This document shows, in pieces, positions 1,608-7,104 of a DNA stretch of 64,000 nt. Position numbers and translations under genes: made by a program. Source of the DNA: Lichenicoccus roseus (GTDB lineage: Bacteria > Pseudomonadota > Alphaproteobacteria > Acetobacterales > Acetobacteraceae); contig NZ_VCDI01000005.1 in assembly GCF_005844085.1 (NCBI RefSeq), positions 1-64,000 on the forward strand, in the 5' to 3' direction. Numbering within the stretch: position 1 is the first letter of the stretch; each line of letters begins with the position of its first letter. The notes below the pieces were generated by a model. That model saw nothing but the letters and a program-made list of their open reading frames with translations. It did no database searches and was not told where the DNA came from.

Positions 1608-2026
1608 GCCGGAACCCGCTCATCACCCTGCTACGCCTGCGTGATGCGGAACTCGACGATGCGAAACGCACGGTGGCCGGAGCGCTGGTGCGTGAACACG
1701 CGGCTAGCCGCCGCCTGGAAGTCGAGGAAGCCGCGTTGTCGCGCGAGATGACGATGGCGACCAGCATGGCAGGTGGCGACGACTGCGTGGACGCTTTCGC
1801 ACGGTGGCTGCCCATCGGCCGGAAGGCGATCGGCGAGGCGCTCATTGCGTGCCAGGTGGCGGCGGCCGAGGTGGATCACGCCCGCACCGTCCTCACGCTG
1901 TCACGCGCGGGCCACCGGTCGGTGGAAATGCTGATGGAGAAGCAGACGCTGCAGACCGCCGCCGAAGCCGCGATCAGGACGCAACGCGAGATGGACGACC
2001 TCGCGTTGCGCCTGCGATCAGCGTAG
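1604..2026 (+). CDS. fliJ: Flagellar export chaperone FliJ-like protein
   Basis: 140 residues, almost entirely charged and alanine-rich helix with heptad-like spacing, as expected for the antiparallel coiled coil of FliJ. FliJ binds the FliI hexamer and couples it to the FlhA export gate. Sequence similarity within this family is low, so the call rests on length, coiled-coil character and the ATGA overlap with fliI. The 3' end overlaps the convergent gene at 2018-2470 by nine bases. Confidence 0.8.
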   Translation: MSRNPLITLLRLRDAELDDAKRTVAGALVREHAASRRLEVEEAALSREMTMATSMAGGDDCVDAFARWLPIGRKAIGEALIACQVAAAEVDHARTVLTLSRAGHRSVEMLMEKQTLQTAAEAAIRTQREMDDLALRLRSA

Positions 2027-2470
2027 CGGCCTGGAAGGCTTGCGACGGCGCAGCAGGCTTCGCACTGCTGCGAAAGCGCCACGTCCAGCATAGCGTCCAG
2101 CCGGACCCATGATGGTGCTGGTCACTGCCGTCAGGGCGACGGCGTTGCGCAGATCATGCAACGCCCTGTCGCGAACTATCCTGGCTTCGACCTCAACCGG
2201 ATCCGGCAATTTGCCGCGCCCCAGAAGAAGGAACACCACCAGAAACAGAACGTCGACCCCGAGCACGATCACGGATGCCCAGACCTTGCCGGTGTGCCAG
2301 GGGCCCTCGCATAGGGTCCAGAGCACTACGTGCACCGAGATCAATGCGAAGAACCCGAACACGGCCGCCACGACCAGGAAGGCGGCACGCCGGGCAAAGC
2401 GCAGTGCAGTCTTCTGAAGAAGCAGCCCTTCGGACGAAGCGGCGGTCTTGGCGAGTTCGACGACCTTCAT
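2018..2470 (-). CDS. YqjE-like / phage-holin superfamily membrane protein
   Basis: 150 residues with two hydrophobic segments (about residues 28-53 and 65-84) separated by a short polar loop, and a basic C-terminus (LLRRRKPSRPLR). This resembles the YqjE/phage-holin-3 family that commonly follows DUF883 (ElaB/YqjD) genes; proteins of this kind are inner-membrane, stationary-phase or stress associated, with no defined reaction. It lies 13 bases downstream of the DUF883 gene and is surely cotranscribed with it. The family assignment is by architecture and context. Confidence 0.6.
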   Translation of the reverse strand: MKVVELAKTAASSEGLLLQKTALRFARRAAFLVVAAVFGFFALISVHVVLWTLCEGPWHTGKVWASVIVLGVDVLFLVVFLLLGRGKLPDPVEVEARIVRDRALHDLRNAVALTAVTSTIMGPAGRYAGRGAFAAVRSLLRRRKPSRPLR

Positions 2471-2483
2471 GCCCCGGGCCGGA

Positions 2484-2753
2484 TCAGCGCGCTATGCGGC
2501 CGAGGAAGTATCCGACCACCGCCGAGATCGCGATCGCGATCAGCGGCTGCCCGCGAACCTGCTCCGACACGTTCTTGACCTGGGTATTGGTCAGGTCGCG
2601 AGCGCTGGTGACCGCGGATTCAGCCTTGCCGGCTGCGTCGGCCAGGGCCGGCGTGACACGCTCGTTCAACAGCTGCTCGACCTGGGCCCGTAGGGACTGA
2701 AGCTGCTCCTGGGTATCCTGCGCAGCATCTTTGACCTTGTCGGAAACAGCCAT
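2484..2753 (-). CDS. DUF883 (ElaB/YqjD-like) membrane-anchored stress protein
   Basis: 89 residues starting MAVSDKVKDAAQDTQ. The first about 65 residues are a polar amphipathic helix, and the end (QPLIAIAISAVVGYFLGRIA) is a single C-terminal membrane anchor with the typical GYFLGR close. ElaB/YqjD proteins tether to the inner membrane, and E. coli YqjD binds ribosomes in stationary phase. A purine-rich AAGGGGG lies just upstream of the ATG. It heads a two-gene operon with the YqjE-like protein and has an EcfG-like promoter sequence at 2783-2807. Confidence 0.8.
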   Translation of the reverse strand: MAVSDKVKDAAQDTQEQLQSLRAQVEQLLNERVTPALADAAGKAESAVTSARDLTNTQVKNVSEQVRGQPLIAIAISAVVGYFLGRIAR

Positions 2754-2816: not shown

Positions 2817-3947
2817 ATGAGCCCGGAGAGGGCCCTGGAGGTGCAGGATCTCCTGCTGTCGACCGCGGCGGCGGGCAATCCGGCGACGGCTAACCAGGCC
2901 CTGTCGCTGTCCGTTGGCGGCGGCGAAAGCATCACCTTGCTGGGTCTCCGCGACGGCGGCGCGCCGGACCTGCTGGACACCATCGCCGGCCATCTTCCAG
3001 CCGCAGCCGGCCGGATCCGTGTCGATGGACGCGATGTCGCGGCGCTGCCACCTGGCGACCGCCGTATCGGGTTGATCTCGGCACGAGACCCCTTGTTCCG
3101 GCACCTGACCGTGCGGCGGAATATCGGCTTTCCGCTGCGCGCGCGGCGGGTGCCGGAACCGGAACGCACCCACCGGGTCGACCAGCTGCTCGCGCTGCTC
3201 GGGTTGGAAGCCGACGCGGATCGCAGGCCGCGCGACCTTTCCCCGGCTCGGACGGTACGCGCGGCGCTGGCGCGTGCGCTGGCCGCCGATCCGGCCTTCA
3301 TCCTGCTTGACGATCCGTTCGCCGCCCTGGACCCGGTATCGCGGCGCGAGCTGCATCAGGTCTTGCGCCAGCTTGTCTCCGCGCGCGGTCTTGGCCTCCT
3401 GCTCGCCACCAGCGACCGCGAGGACGCGCTGTCGCTGGGCGGCCGCATCGGGATTCTCGATCGTGGGCGACTGCGCCAGCTTGCGACCGCGCCCGAGCTG
3501 CTCGACCGGCCGGCGGACGAGACCGTCGCCACCGTGTTCGGCGGCGCCAACAGCCTCACCGGTCAGGTTCAGGACATCGAGGACGACGTGGCGCTGGTCC
3601 GCCTGAGCGCCGGGCCGACGGTTGAGGCTATGGCTGCCGAGGGCCTGCAGGCCGGCATGCTGTGCATCGTCTGCATCCGGCCGGAACGGGTCGCGGTCGC
3701 CTTCCTGTCGGGCGCGCCTTCCGCCTCCGGAGACGGCCAGCTCGGCAGCGACGTACTGCCCGCGACGCTCTCCGAGACGGTTCATCTGGGCGACCATCTC
3801 AGGCTGCGCTTCCGGCTCGCCGGCGGCGGCGAGATGGTCGTGCACCGGCCGGCATCGCAGCCCACCTCCCAGCTCAAGCGCGACCGCCCGGCGGAACTCG
3901 CCTGGCAGCCGTCGCATGCCATCGCCTTTCCGGCCCCCGACATGTAG
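2817..3947 (+). CDS. Degenerate MalK/PotA-type ABC ATPase (catalytic motifs lost)
   Basis: 376 residues with the full layout of a PotA/MalK-type subunit: nucleotide-binding domain (about 1-235), then a TOBE-like regulatory domain with CIRPERVAVA. Every catalytic element is altered: the Walker A position reads GLRDGGAPDLL with no lysine, the Q-loop glutamine is missing (ISA for FQ), the signature is LSPARTVR in place of LSGGQQQR, Walker B ends in DD instead of DE, and the H-loop histidine is serine (ATSDREDA). The frame is intact over its whole length. It is most likely a non-hydrolysing ABC protein, either decaying or repurposed, next to a matching binding protein and a permease remnant. Confidence 0.75.
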   Translation: MSPERALEVQDLLLSTAAAGNPATANQALSLSVGGGESITLLGLRDGGAPDLLDTIAGHLPAAAGRIRVDGRDVAALPPGDRRIGLISARDPLFRHLTVRRNIGFPLRARRVPEPERTHRVDQLLALLGLEADADRRPRDLSPARTVRAALARALAADPAFILLDDPFAALDPVSRRELHQVLRQLVSARGLGLLLATSDREDALSLGGRIGILDRGRLRQLATAPELLDRPADETVATVFGGANSLTGQVQDIEDDVALVRLSAGPTVEAMAAEGLQAGMLCIVCIRPERVAVAFLSGAPSASGDGQLGSDVLPATLSETVHLGDHLRLRFRLAGGGEMVVHRPASQPTSQLKRDRPAELAWQPSHAIAFPAPDM

Positions 3948-4119: not shown

Positions 4120-5262
4120 ATGATCCGACCGAGCAGATCGCCATTCCGGTGCGCTCCGGTGCTCTGGCTTCTGCCTGCACTGGCGTGCGGCGGCGCCGCT
4201 GCCGAGCCCCCGACCCCGACGGCCTCCCGTGCCGCCGTGTCTCGTCAGGCGAGCGCGCATCCGGACGCGCTGCAGGTCGCCTCCCTGGGCGGCGGCCTGC
4301 AGGAGGCGCAGCAAGCCACCCTGTTCAAGCCGTTCAACGATCAGACCGACATCGCCCTGCATGTCCAGGGCTGGGACGGCAGCCTGTCCACGCTGCAGAA
4401 GCGAGCGGCGAGCGGCGCCGTCGGCTGGGATCTGGTGTTGATGGAGGAGGCGCCGCTCCGGGTGGCCTGCCGGCAGGGACTCTTCATCCCCGACCCGCGA
4501 GGCACCGGCGATCGCGCCGACAGGCCGGACAGTACGGGTGCCGGGTGCGGCGTCAGCGCCTGGCGCGAGAGCATCGTGCTGGCCTGGGACAAGGGCCGGG
4601 TGGACTCCACGCCGACCTGGGCGGATTTCTGGGACGTCGCGCGCCGGCCCGGCAAGCGCGGCCTCAAGCGTGATCCGCGTGGCACGCTGGAGATTGCGCT
4701 TATGGCCGACGGGGTGGCGCCGTCCGACATCTATCGCACCCTGCAGACGCCGGACGGCATCAACCGCGCCTTCCGCAAGCTCGACCAGCTCAAACCCTAC
4801 ATCGTCTGGTGGCAGACCCCGGCCGAGGCGGTGCAGATCATAGAGAGCGGTGCCGTGCTGATGACAAGTGCTCCGAGTGGCGAGATCGCCACGGCCGATC
4901 GCCTCGGCAACCGGCATTTCGGCACCCAGTGGCAGCAAAGCCTGGGCGACGTGCTGGACTGGGGCATCACCCGATCGGCGGGCCCGGCAGCGCGTGACGT
5001 CGCCCGGCACCTCCTGGACTTCACCCGGCAACCGGACCGGGCGCAGGCATTCGCCGCAGCCTATCTCGCCCAGGCCAACCCGAGCCCGTCGACGACCGCC
5101 ACGGCCGCAGACCCTCCGGGGGCAACCGCCTCGACCGACAAACCCGCACCGGCGGCTCCGGTGCCGCGACATGCCGACACGCTCATGCTCGACGAGGATT
5201 TCTGGGCAGCTCAACTCGAACCGCTGGGACGCCGGTTCGAAGCCTGGATCAGCGCGAAGTGA
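4120..5262 (+). CDS. PotD-like periplasmic substrate-binding protein
   Basis: 380 residues. A signal peptide is visible (basic start, then APVLWLLPALACGGAAA). The mature part follows the spermidine/putrescine-binding family pattern: LQVASLGGG at the start, then the segment with GVAPSDIYRTLQTPDGINRA, then KPYIVWWQTPAEAVQ. Between about residues 322 and 352 there is a Pro/Ala/Thr-rich insertion (SPSTTATAADPPGAT) before the closing FW...RFEAW motif. The start at 4120 is chosen because the signal peptide begins there; an upstream in-frame ATG at 4006 would add an unlikely leader. The ligand is unknown. It lies between the degenerate ATPase and a truncated permease. Confidence 0.75.
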   Translation: MIRPSRSPFRCAPVLWLLPALACGGAAAEPPTPTASRAAVSRQASAHPDALQVASLGGGLQEAQQATLFKPFNDQTDIALHVQGWDGSLSTLQKRAASGAVGWDLVLMEEAPLRVACRQGLFIPDPRGTGDRADRPDSTGAGCGVSAWRESIVLAWDKGRVDSTPTWADFWDVARRPGKRGLKRDPRGTLEIALMADGVAPSDIYRTLQTPDGINRAFRKLDQLKPYIVWWQTPAEAVQIIESGAVLMTSAPSGEIATADRLGNRHFGTQWQQSLGDVLDWGITRSAGPAARDVARHLLDFTRQPDRAQAFAAAYLAQANPSPSTTATAADPPGATASTDKPAPAAPVPRHADTLMLDEDFWAAQLEPLGRRFEAWISAK

Positions 5263-5269
5263 CGCCTGA

Positions 5270-5599
5270 TTGAGGGCCTGGCCCAAGCTGGCGGTGATCG
5301 CGCTCATGCTGCCAGGCGCGATCACCGCCGCGATCCTGCCCGTGCTGCTGAACCATCCCCCCAGCCCGGCCGGGCTGCGTGTATGGCGCCTCGCCCTGGC
5401 GCTGCCGGTGCTGCTGACGCCTGTCCTGGCTTCGTTCTGGCAGTTGCAACGCGGCGAGGCGCGGGCGGCCGCGAGCCTCGGCGCCAAGCGCTTCGACCGG
5501 CTGCGCTGGATCTGGCTGCCACAGCTCGCCCCAGGCCTCGCCGCCAGCCTGGTGCTGGCGTTCCTGCTCGCCGGTGCTGCATTCCTGACCCGGCATTAG
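5270..5599 (+). pseudogene. Truncated PotB/PotC-type ABC permease remnant
   Basis: A 109-codon open frame with a TTG start seven bases after the binding-protein stop. It has two or three hydrophobic segments and a recognisable EAA loop ([20 protein letters not shown] followed by LPQLAPGL), the site where ABC permeases dock on the ATPase. A complete permease of this family is about 270 residues, so the N-terminal half is absent and the protein ends soon after the EAA loop. It may still be translated, but a working channel is unlikely. Confidence 0.6.
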
Positions 5600-5643: not shown

Positions 5644-6150
5644 ATGACCGAGCCCTTCTGGAAGCGCAAGCGCCTGGACGAGATGACCACGCAGGAGTGG
5701 GAATCGCTCTGCGACGGCTGCGGCCGCTGCTGCCTGCACAAGCTGCGCGACGAAGACACCGAGGAGGTCATCTTCACCAACGTCGCCTGTCGCCTGCTCG
5801 ATCCCGAGAGCTGCCAGTGCGCCGACTACGCGAAGCGGCAGCGCAAGGTGCCGGATTGCGTGCGCCTCACCCCGCAGAGCCTGCCCGAGATCGACTGGCT
5901 GCCGCCCTCCTGCGGCTACCGGCGCCTGCAGGAAGGTCGCGACCTCGCCTGGTGGCATCCGCTGGTCTCCGGCCGGGCGGAGAGCGTGCACGAGGCCGGG
6001 ATCTCGGTGCGCGGCCGGGTCGTCGGCGAGCGCGAGGCCGGTCCGATCGAGCATCATGTCGTCGACTGGCCCGGGCGTACGCCGCGCGCCATCGGCCGGC
6101 CGGCGGTGCCACCGACGATGCGCCGGCGACGGGTCGAGCGGGCTTCATGA
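5644..6150 (+). CDS. YcgN/UPF0260 family cysteine-cluster protein
   Basis: 168 residues. The N-terminal part carries [12 protein letters not shown], then [14 protein letters not shown] and PDC, the conserved cysteine set of the YcgN family, which probably binds a metal or Fe-S centre; the biochemical role is unknown. Tryptophan-rich stretches ([22 protein letters not shown]) are also typical. The ATG at 5644 is the only sensible start. The stop overlaps the ATG of the metallopeptidase gene (ATGA), indicating coupling. Confidence 0.85.
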
Positions 6151-6944
6151 GCCGGGAGCCGGTCCGCAAGCTGAAGCGTACCGGCCAGAAGCGTACGGAC
6201 CAGAAGCGCGCGGGCCAGAAGCGCACCGGAATGGCGCCGCCGCCGGAAATGCTGCTGCTCGCGGGCGGCGAGACGCCGATACGATGGCAGCGGTCACGGC
6301 AGGCGCGGCGGGTCTCGCTACGGATCGACCCGCGCGCCGGAACGGTGGTGGTGACGCTGCCCCCGCGTATCACCCGGGAAGCGGGACTTGCCCTGTTGCA
6401 CGCCCACTCCGGCTGGATCTCCGGCAAGCTGGCGGCACTCCCTGGCCACGTGGTTTTCGATGCGGAGGCCATGGTTTCGCTCAGTGGCGTGCCGCACGTG
6501 ATCCGCCACCATCCGCAGGCGCGTCGCGGCGTCTGGGTCGAGGCCGGCGAGATCCGGGTCAGCGGCGATCACGCCTTCCTGCAGCGCCGGGTGCTGGATT
6601 TCCTGCGTGGCGAGGCACGCGATGTGCTGGGTGCGCTGGCCCGGGGCATCGCCGAGGCCTCGGTCGCGACTGGTGCCGCCCTGCGGCCACGACGGCTCGC
6701 GATCAAGGATACCAGTAGCCGCTGGGGCAGCTGCTCGTCCGACGGCGTGGTGATGTTCAGCTGGCGCCTGGTGATGGCCCCGCCGGAGATCCAGCACTAC
6801 GTCGTCGCGCACGAGTTGGCGCATCTTCGCCACCTGGATCACGGAGCCAACTTCTGGGCCCTGGTGGCGGCGCTGACCCCGCACCGGCAGCGCGCGGAGG
6901 CCTGGCTCCGGCTGCACGGCGCGGCGCTGCTGCGCATGGGCTAG
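6147..6944 (+). CDS. YgjP-like M48-type zinc metallopeptidase
   Basis: 265 residues. The zinc site is [16 protein letters not shown] near residue 217 (HExxH plus a downstream His), preceded by the family block [11 protein letters not shown]. This matches the YgjP/DUF45 group of WLM-type metallopeptidases, whose substrates are not defined. The N-terminus is unusual: residues about 7-29 consist of a repeated basic unit ([19 protein letters not shown]) before the family-typical start near the second ATG at 6231. Translation from 6147 is supported by the ATGA overlap with the upstream gene. Confidence 0.85.
6177..6230 (+). repeat. 15-bp coding tandem repeat
   Basis: Three 15-bp units (6177-6191, 6192-6206, 6207-6221) and a partial fourth, each ending CCAGAAG with small differences, encode the repeated basic pentapeptide KR-x-x-Q at the start of the metallopeptidase. 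The in-frame length lets copy number vary without a frameshift. Confidence 0.8.
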
Positions 6945-7019: not shown

Positions 7020-7104
7020 GCGGGCGTGATGGAATGGTAGACATAACGGACTTAAAATCCGTAGGGCCTCGCCCATGCCGGTTCGAGTCCGGCCGCCCGT
7101 ACCA
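7020..7104 (+). tRNA. tRNA-Leu(UAA)
   Basis: A full cloverleaf is visible. The acceptor stem is GCGGGCG with CGCCCGT (a G-U first pair). The anticodon stem ACGGA/TCCGT encloses loop CTTAAAA, giving anticodon TAA. A long variable arm (GGGCCTCGCCC) marks a class II tRNA, and the T arm is GCCGG-TTCGAGT-CCGGC. The 3' ACCA is encoded. The long variable arm and anticodon identify leucine. It stands alone between the metallopeptidase and the aldo/keto reductase; tRNA genes are common integration sites, but no integrase or att duplication was seen nearby. Confidence 0.96.

Follow-up and report, generated by a model that had tools for sequence, protein, structure and literature searches.

A conserved, catalytically degenerate PotA/MalK-type ABC ATPase of acetic acid bacteria and its probable place in a non-transporting membrane complex

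The stretch of DNA analyzed here (hereafter the window; 64,000 nucleotides from Lichenicoccus roseus, contig NZ_VCDI01000005.1) encodes an ABC ATPase of the PotA/MalK type that has been stripped of its catalytic motifs, followed by a PotD-like periplasmic binding protein and a mini-permease (Table 1). It is well supported by sequence comparison that this pseudo-ATPase is both conserved and catalytically dead. The three genes, hereafter the module, probably specify a membrane complex that neither transports nor hydrolyzes ATP and that would act as a sensor or regulator through the TOBE domain of the pseudo-ATPase. As a whole, the observations are best explained, with somewhat better than even confidence, by a polyamine-type importer that was turned into such a non-transporting complex in an acetic-acid-bacterial lineage.

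Table 1. Features of the pseudo-ATPase module and its flanking genes in the window.
Feature	Position	Strand	Remarks
Pseudo-ATPase, PotA/MalK-type ABC subunit (NBD + TOBE) without catalytic motifs	2817..3947	+	
Former Walker A, GLRDGGAP (residues 43-50)	2943..2966	+	No Lys, no Thr/Ser; canonical sequence GPSGSGKT
Former Q-loop and coupling-helix groove, GLISARDPLF (85-94)	3069..3098	+	Gln89 lost, P92 newly fixed, L93/F94 kept
Former signature, LSPARTVR (141-148)	3237..3260	+	GG lost, R148 kept
Former Walker B, FILLDD (161-166)	3297..3314	+	Catalytic Glu replaced by Asp
Former H-loop His, now Ser199	3411..3413	+	THD to TSD
TOBE/regulatory domain (246-372)	3552..3932	+	Now the most conserved part; newly fixed C286, F296, R333
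PotD-like periplasmic binding protein (SBP_bac_8)	4120..5262	+	Signal peptide judged by eye; conserved C-lobe, N-lobe changed at several positions
Mini-permease, 109 aa, MetI-type core without most helices	5270..5599	+	TTG start assumed
EAA coupling loop of the mini-permease	5453..5533	+	
YcgN/CxxCxxCC family, flanking marker gene	5644..6150	+	
YgjP-like metallopeptidase, flanking marker gene	6147..6944	+	
Holin-superfamily-III-like membrane protein, flanking marker on the divergent side	2018..2470	-	Pfam below cut-off
Small divergent gene, 89 aa, C-terminal membrane anchor, conserved beside the module	2484..2753	-	YqjD/ElaB-like by eye

The pseudo-ATPase gene is open over 376 amino acids from an ATG start, and its codon-position GC (0.79/0.52/0.85) follows the same pattern as that of genuine neighbors such as FliI. 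Its product scores above the cut-offs of Pfam PF00005 (63 bits) and TOBE_2 (53 bits) and stays below those of the PotA-specific models TIGR01187 (166 bits; cut-off 355.6) and NF006987 (161 bits; cut-off 482), and a profile of the pseudo-ATPase matches PotA at 1e-60. It is an ABC ATPase of the PotA/MalK type by descent, without being a PotA equivalog. A preliminary description had noted a complete ABC ATPase frame without its five catalytic motifs, which is borne out by alignment with canonical relatives: the Q-loop VFQ has become ISA, the signature LSGGQ has become LSPAR and the Walker B LLLDEP has become ILLDDP. Of the Walker A Lys, Q-loop Gln, LSGGQ, Walker B Glu and H-loop His, none is present in the window copy (0/5). 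The same description held that the D-loop and a TOBE-like block remain. This is true of the window copy (D-loop ALD, TOBE), but does not extend to the clade for the D-loop Asp, which occurs in only 48/108 sequences. AlphaFold models of 36 orthologues (pLDDT 93) adopt the full MalK fold, and the structure match to MalK reaches a Z of 35 over 351 aligned residues. The full-length fold is therewith shared with MalK of MalFGK2; whereas MalK hydrolyzes ATP and drives transport, the sites for doing so are absent from the pseudo-ATPase.

Among 395 Acetobacteraceae genomes searched with a profile, 89 carry the pseudo-ATPase in the same syntenic position. They belong to 18 genera, among them Acetobacter, Gluconacetobacter, Komagataeibacter, Novacetimonas and Asaia. 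The search is delimited by a score gap, pseudo-ATPases scoring at least 317 bits and canonical paralogues at most 310. None of the matches in these 89 genomes contains an internal stop. Loci were collected from contigs with the binding-protein alignment, the diverse ATPase alignment being short of conserved stretches, and motifs were read in 108 distinct sequences that cover nearly all 89 genomes as well as the named loci. The motif loss is common to these 108 orthologues, far beyond chance: the Walker A Lys and the Walker B Glu are found in 0/108 each, and in 104/108 all five catalytic features are missing. The mini-permease profile scores at least 69 bits in 88 genomes (next score 57), 87 of which are among the 89 with a pseudo-ATPase. 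Where both genes lie on one contig (86 genomes), they are always on the same strand and 1.3-3.9 kb apart. The exceptions are G137, which has the ATPase and the binding protein without a detectable mini-permease, and G009, whose contig ends too early. In one further genome of 2.0 Mb (G146 contig 1, 1882651-1883762), the mini-permease is present and the pseudo-ATPase is split over two frames, which reflects either one recent inactivation or an error in assembly. Some family members with genomes of 1.9-2.2 Mb have no module; because it is absent from some reduced genomes and one copy is frame-broken, the module is dispensable in some settings.

The ATPase phylogeny was built by a quick method, with SH-aLRT support only, from an alignment from which the motif columns had been removed, and therefore the shared losses themselves are unable to create a clade. 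The canonical ATPases are set apart by a branch with an SH-aLRT of 97, and the 51 fully degenerate sequences are grouped with a support of 99. At the base of the degenerate group stand two half-degenerate sequences (L006 and L015), in which Walker A is intact and the signature, catalytic Glu and His are lost. Similarly, the binding proteins of the module form one clade (99), adjoining the binding protein of the half-degenerate locus L037. The motif loss has a single origin that is common to the 18 genera. From the half-degenerate sequences we infer that the signature, catalytic Glu and His were lost first and Walker A later. One locus (L050) carries a canonical operon in the order ATPase, binding protein, permease, permease beside a holin-like gene, a layout that is probably the ancestral arrangement, and complete and half-degenerate relatives together sketch the outline of a conversion route.

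A few degenerate ATPases were also seen elsewhere. An isolated second PotA-like ATPase with none of the five catalytic features is located at L241:6870-8000 (G018 contig 19); neither the module binding protein nor the marker genes were found beside it, and it is possibly an independent case of degeneration. Very divergent degenerate ATPases beside similar binding proteins occur in metagenome bins (L096:6400-7836, L100:6649-7872 and L109:2482-3582) and branch near the base. L096 has a membrane ORF of 181 amino acids with six helices behind the binding protein, and no permease was detectable in L100.

Selection on the module was estimated as NG86 dN/dS in 16 congeneric species pairs, a set of genera other than the window's own. 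Median values are 0.146 for the pseudo-ATPase, 0.14 for the binding protein and 0.29 for the mini-permease, which is the fastest evolving of the three module genes. For comparison, canonical ATPases range from 0.09 to 0.32, and YcgN and YgjP have values of 0.11 and 0.16, respectively. A decaying gene is expected to show a dN/dS near 1. The comparison among orthologues, which had been put forward as a check on whether the gene is maintained, thus gives a value (about 0.15) well below 1. Two interpretations had been offered for the intact frame, recent relaxed selection or a retained non-hydrolyzing role; the former is rejected and the latter, probably that of a sensor or scaffold, is supported, because of this low dN/dS, the single-origin loss in 18 genera and the appearance of new conserved positions.

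These new positions are part of a broader shift in constraint. Among positions conserved in canonical ATPases, mean retention is 22% for those of nucleotide binding and catalysis and 82% for the groove behind the Q-loop. Of the groove residues, F94 (103/108), N102 (107/108) and R153 (107/108) are kept in the pseudo clade. LptB F90, L93 and R150 presumably correspond to F94, L97 and R153 of the window copy, as judged from motif spacing and the LptB sequence, and the great majority of pseudo-ATPase sequences, or almost every one, retain the latter three. In LptB, F90, L93 and R150 contact the coupling helices (PMC5082905); in MalK, the EAA loop docks into a cleft of the helical subdomain (PMC3150292). 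Conversely, around 30 positions that are not fixed in canonical ATPases have been gained, such as A189, R231, A244, C286, F296, R333 and, beside the former Q-loop Gln, P92. Pairwise identity in the NBD and TOBE domain is 0.40 and 0.44 in the pseudo clade, versus 0.60 and 0.27 in canonical ATPases. At matched divergence, TOBE minus NBD identity is +0.02 to +0.05 at every level in the pseudo clade and -0.17 to -0.34 in the canonical ATPases. Constraint has moved from the NBD to the TOBE domain, although the conservation of the latter could reflect dimer stability instead of a partner.

The linkage between the ATPase gene and the PotD-like gene is kept across genera. The binding protein matches PotD and the SBP_bac_8 profile (103 bits); it has kept the C-lobe but lacks several N-lobe positions that canonical binding proteins conserve, positions that may be ligand contacts by analogy with PotD. 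While the preliminary description correctly pointed to this neighbor, it overlooked a third gene of the operon, the mini-permease, which measures about 110-160 amino acids across orthologues (109 in the window, some 135-160 elsewhere). In the window, it aligns solely to the importer-permease core around the EAA loop. An EAA-like loop (TAxGLGAxxxxRxRLLWLPLL), aligned to that of PotC, is kept in the mini-permeases, as is, in the pseudo-ATPase, the groove into which such a loop normally fits. Against E. coli, the orthologue profile matches PotC over residues 60-192 (2.6e-8) and PotB (4e-4), and it is on this sequence match that the identity of the mini-permease rests, not on the structure matches, which are weak: Foldseek mostly returns MetI-type permeases (best E-value 0.04), and a VIA Z of 7-8 counts as moderate for a helical protein. 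The model of the Gluconacetobacter diazotrophicus protein (pLDDT 78) shows four long helices, with one further short helix where the EAA loop lies. Signals on its ancestry are split, as PotC scores better in the PDB and gene order and a WLPQ signature favor the first permease. No second permease was found in the module. Of the parts of a complete type I importer, the EAA loop and the operon-encoded binding protein are present and the two full-length permeases (~6 helices each) are not. The module is ABC by descent, and by no criterion tested is it a functional transporter.

We consider it an even call whether, at the base of the acetic acid bacteria, a single conversion turned an entire importer operon into a conserved ATP-free trans-envelope complex, in which the binding protein would lie outside, the mini-permease would be the anchor, the dead ATPase would lie inside and the TOBE domain would be the output. 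The ancestor would have been a complete polyamine-type ABC importer with an ATPase, a binding protein and two permeases. As observed, the ATPase has lost its five catalytic motifs, one permease is absent from the module and the other is cut to a core of ~4 helices, while the three remaining genes stay side by side and under purifying selection. The EAA loop of the mini-permease may dock the pseudo-ATPase to the membrane, while the periplasmic binding protein may sense an external ligand or state. The signal or position would then be passed to a cytoplasmic partner bound at the TOBE domain, and no ATP would be hydrolyzed by the complex. The regulatory domain of MalK binds MalT and EIIAGlc, making MalK a regulatory protein through its C-terminal domain. 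Output through the TOBE domain of the pseudo-ATPase might, by analogy, be of this kind.

Other explanations predict different fates for the three genes. A decaying operon that has lost its function without yet collecting stops would account for the lost motifs, the shortened permease and the split ATPase of G146. Yet a dN/dS of about 0.15 in 16 pairs, one shared origin with frames intact in 89 genomes, the gain of conserved positions and the persistence of three genes side by side all speak against it, and decay, to which we attach hardly any credence, is already refuted for the clade. Alternatively, the pseudo-ATPase might pair with an intact ABC ATPase encoded elsewhere, so that the module still transports. 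The genomes do encode other ABC ATPases, and degenerate sites are common in exporters, in which one site stays active (PMC7756269). However, a composite ATP site is made up of a Walker A and a signature that come from different subunits (PMC7756269), and because the pseudo subunit has neither, no complete composite site exists even in a mixed dimer. In addition, only ~4 helices are left of the permease and the module has no partner permease for it, which makes this pairing very improbable.

A passive route, in which an ATP-independent pore or facilitator is built from the binding protein and a dimer of mini-permeases and the pseudo-ATPase serves as a static plug or stabilizer, would explain why a cytoplasmic cap has been kept together with the membrane part and the binding protein. 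It is nonetheless improbable, as several canonical N-lobe positions of the binding protein are lost, the fold of the permease core is incomplete and the shift of constraint to the TOBE domain is left unexplained. The latter is accommodated if only a soluble role of the pseudo-ATPase matters, for instance as an anti-activator that sequesters a regulator through its TOBE domain, with the membrane parts merely as a tether: the TOBE domain is the most conserved part, the mini-permease evolves fastest and G137 manages without a detectable one. Such a role is unlikely, since the binding protein is constrained like the ATPase, which a mere tether does not need. The conversion into a non-transporting complex remains the reading that we prefer.

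Pseudoenzymes are well known among kinases. In ABC exporters, single degenerate sites are known (PMC7756269); heterodimeric exporters of this type likewise contain ABC subunits with replaced catalytic residues that are kept by selection. Those exporters keep one complete site, whereas the importer-type homodimer of the module has lost both composite sites, Walker A and signature having disappeared from the same subunit. The E. coli spermidine importer PotABC-PotD (PDB 8y5f, 8y5g, 8jv1) comprises the same gene types as the module, but in the latter the catalytic motifs are missing, a single shortened permease stands in place of the two full ones and the N-lobe of the binding protein is altered. 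The module may also resemble FtsEX-type non-transporting complexes, described in PMC11627006 as ABC-derived membrane complexes that pass a signal rather than a solute, although FtsE needs its ATPase and the module cannot have one. Literature searches, which covered few subscription papers, returned no description of the module, of a mutant phenotype or of a signaling partner. Nor did the literature searched report a whole importer (motor, pore and binding protein) that has lost its transport features yet persists as a conserved set. If true, this would show that an ATP-free transmembrane device can arise by exaptation of an ABC scaffold, and it would supply the intermediates of such a conversion. 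It would also call for a correction of annotation, as Pfam ABC_tran and SBP_bac_8 would label the module as an active transporter, in bacteria that are used industrially as vinegar and cellulose producers.

The module is bracketed in the same way at other loci, by the holin-like and small membrane proteins on the divergent side and by YcgN and YgjP downstream. In the window, the flagellar genes FliI and FliJ (228-2026) adjoin the module, as they do in G001 (L036); they were not found beside the other loci compared. A tRNA gene is located at 7020-7101, downstream of the YgjP gene. In KSS8 (L043:9307-10512, minus strand), a gene on the opposite strand lies between the binding protein and the mini-permease, which survives. 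By eye, this intervening gene looks like a 5-aminolevulinate synthase and, judging by spacing, it also occurs in group members such as L040.
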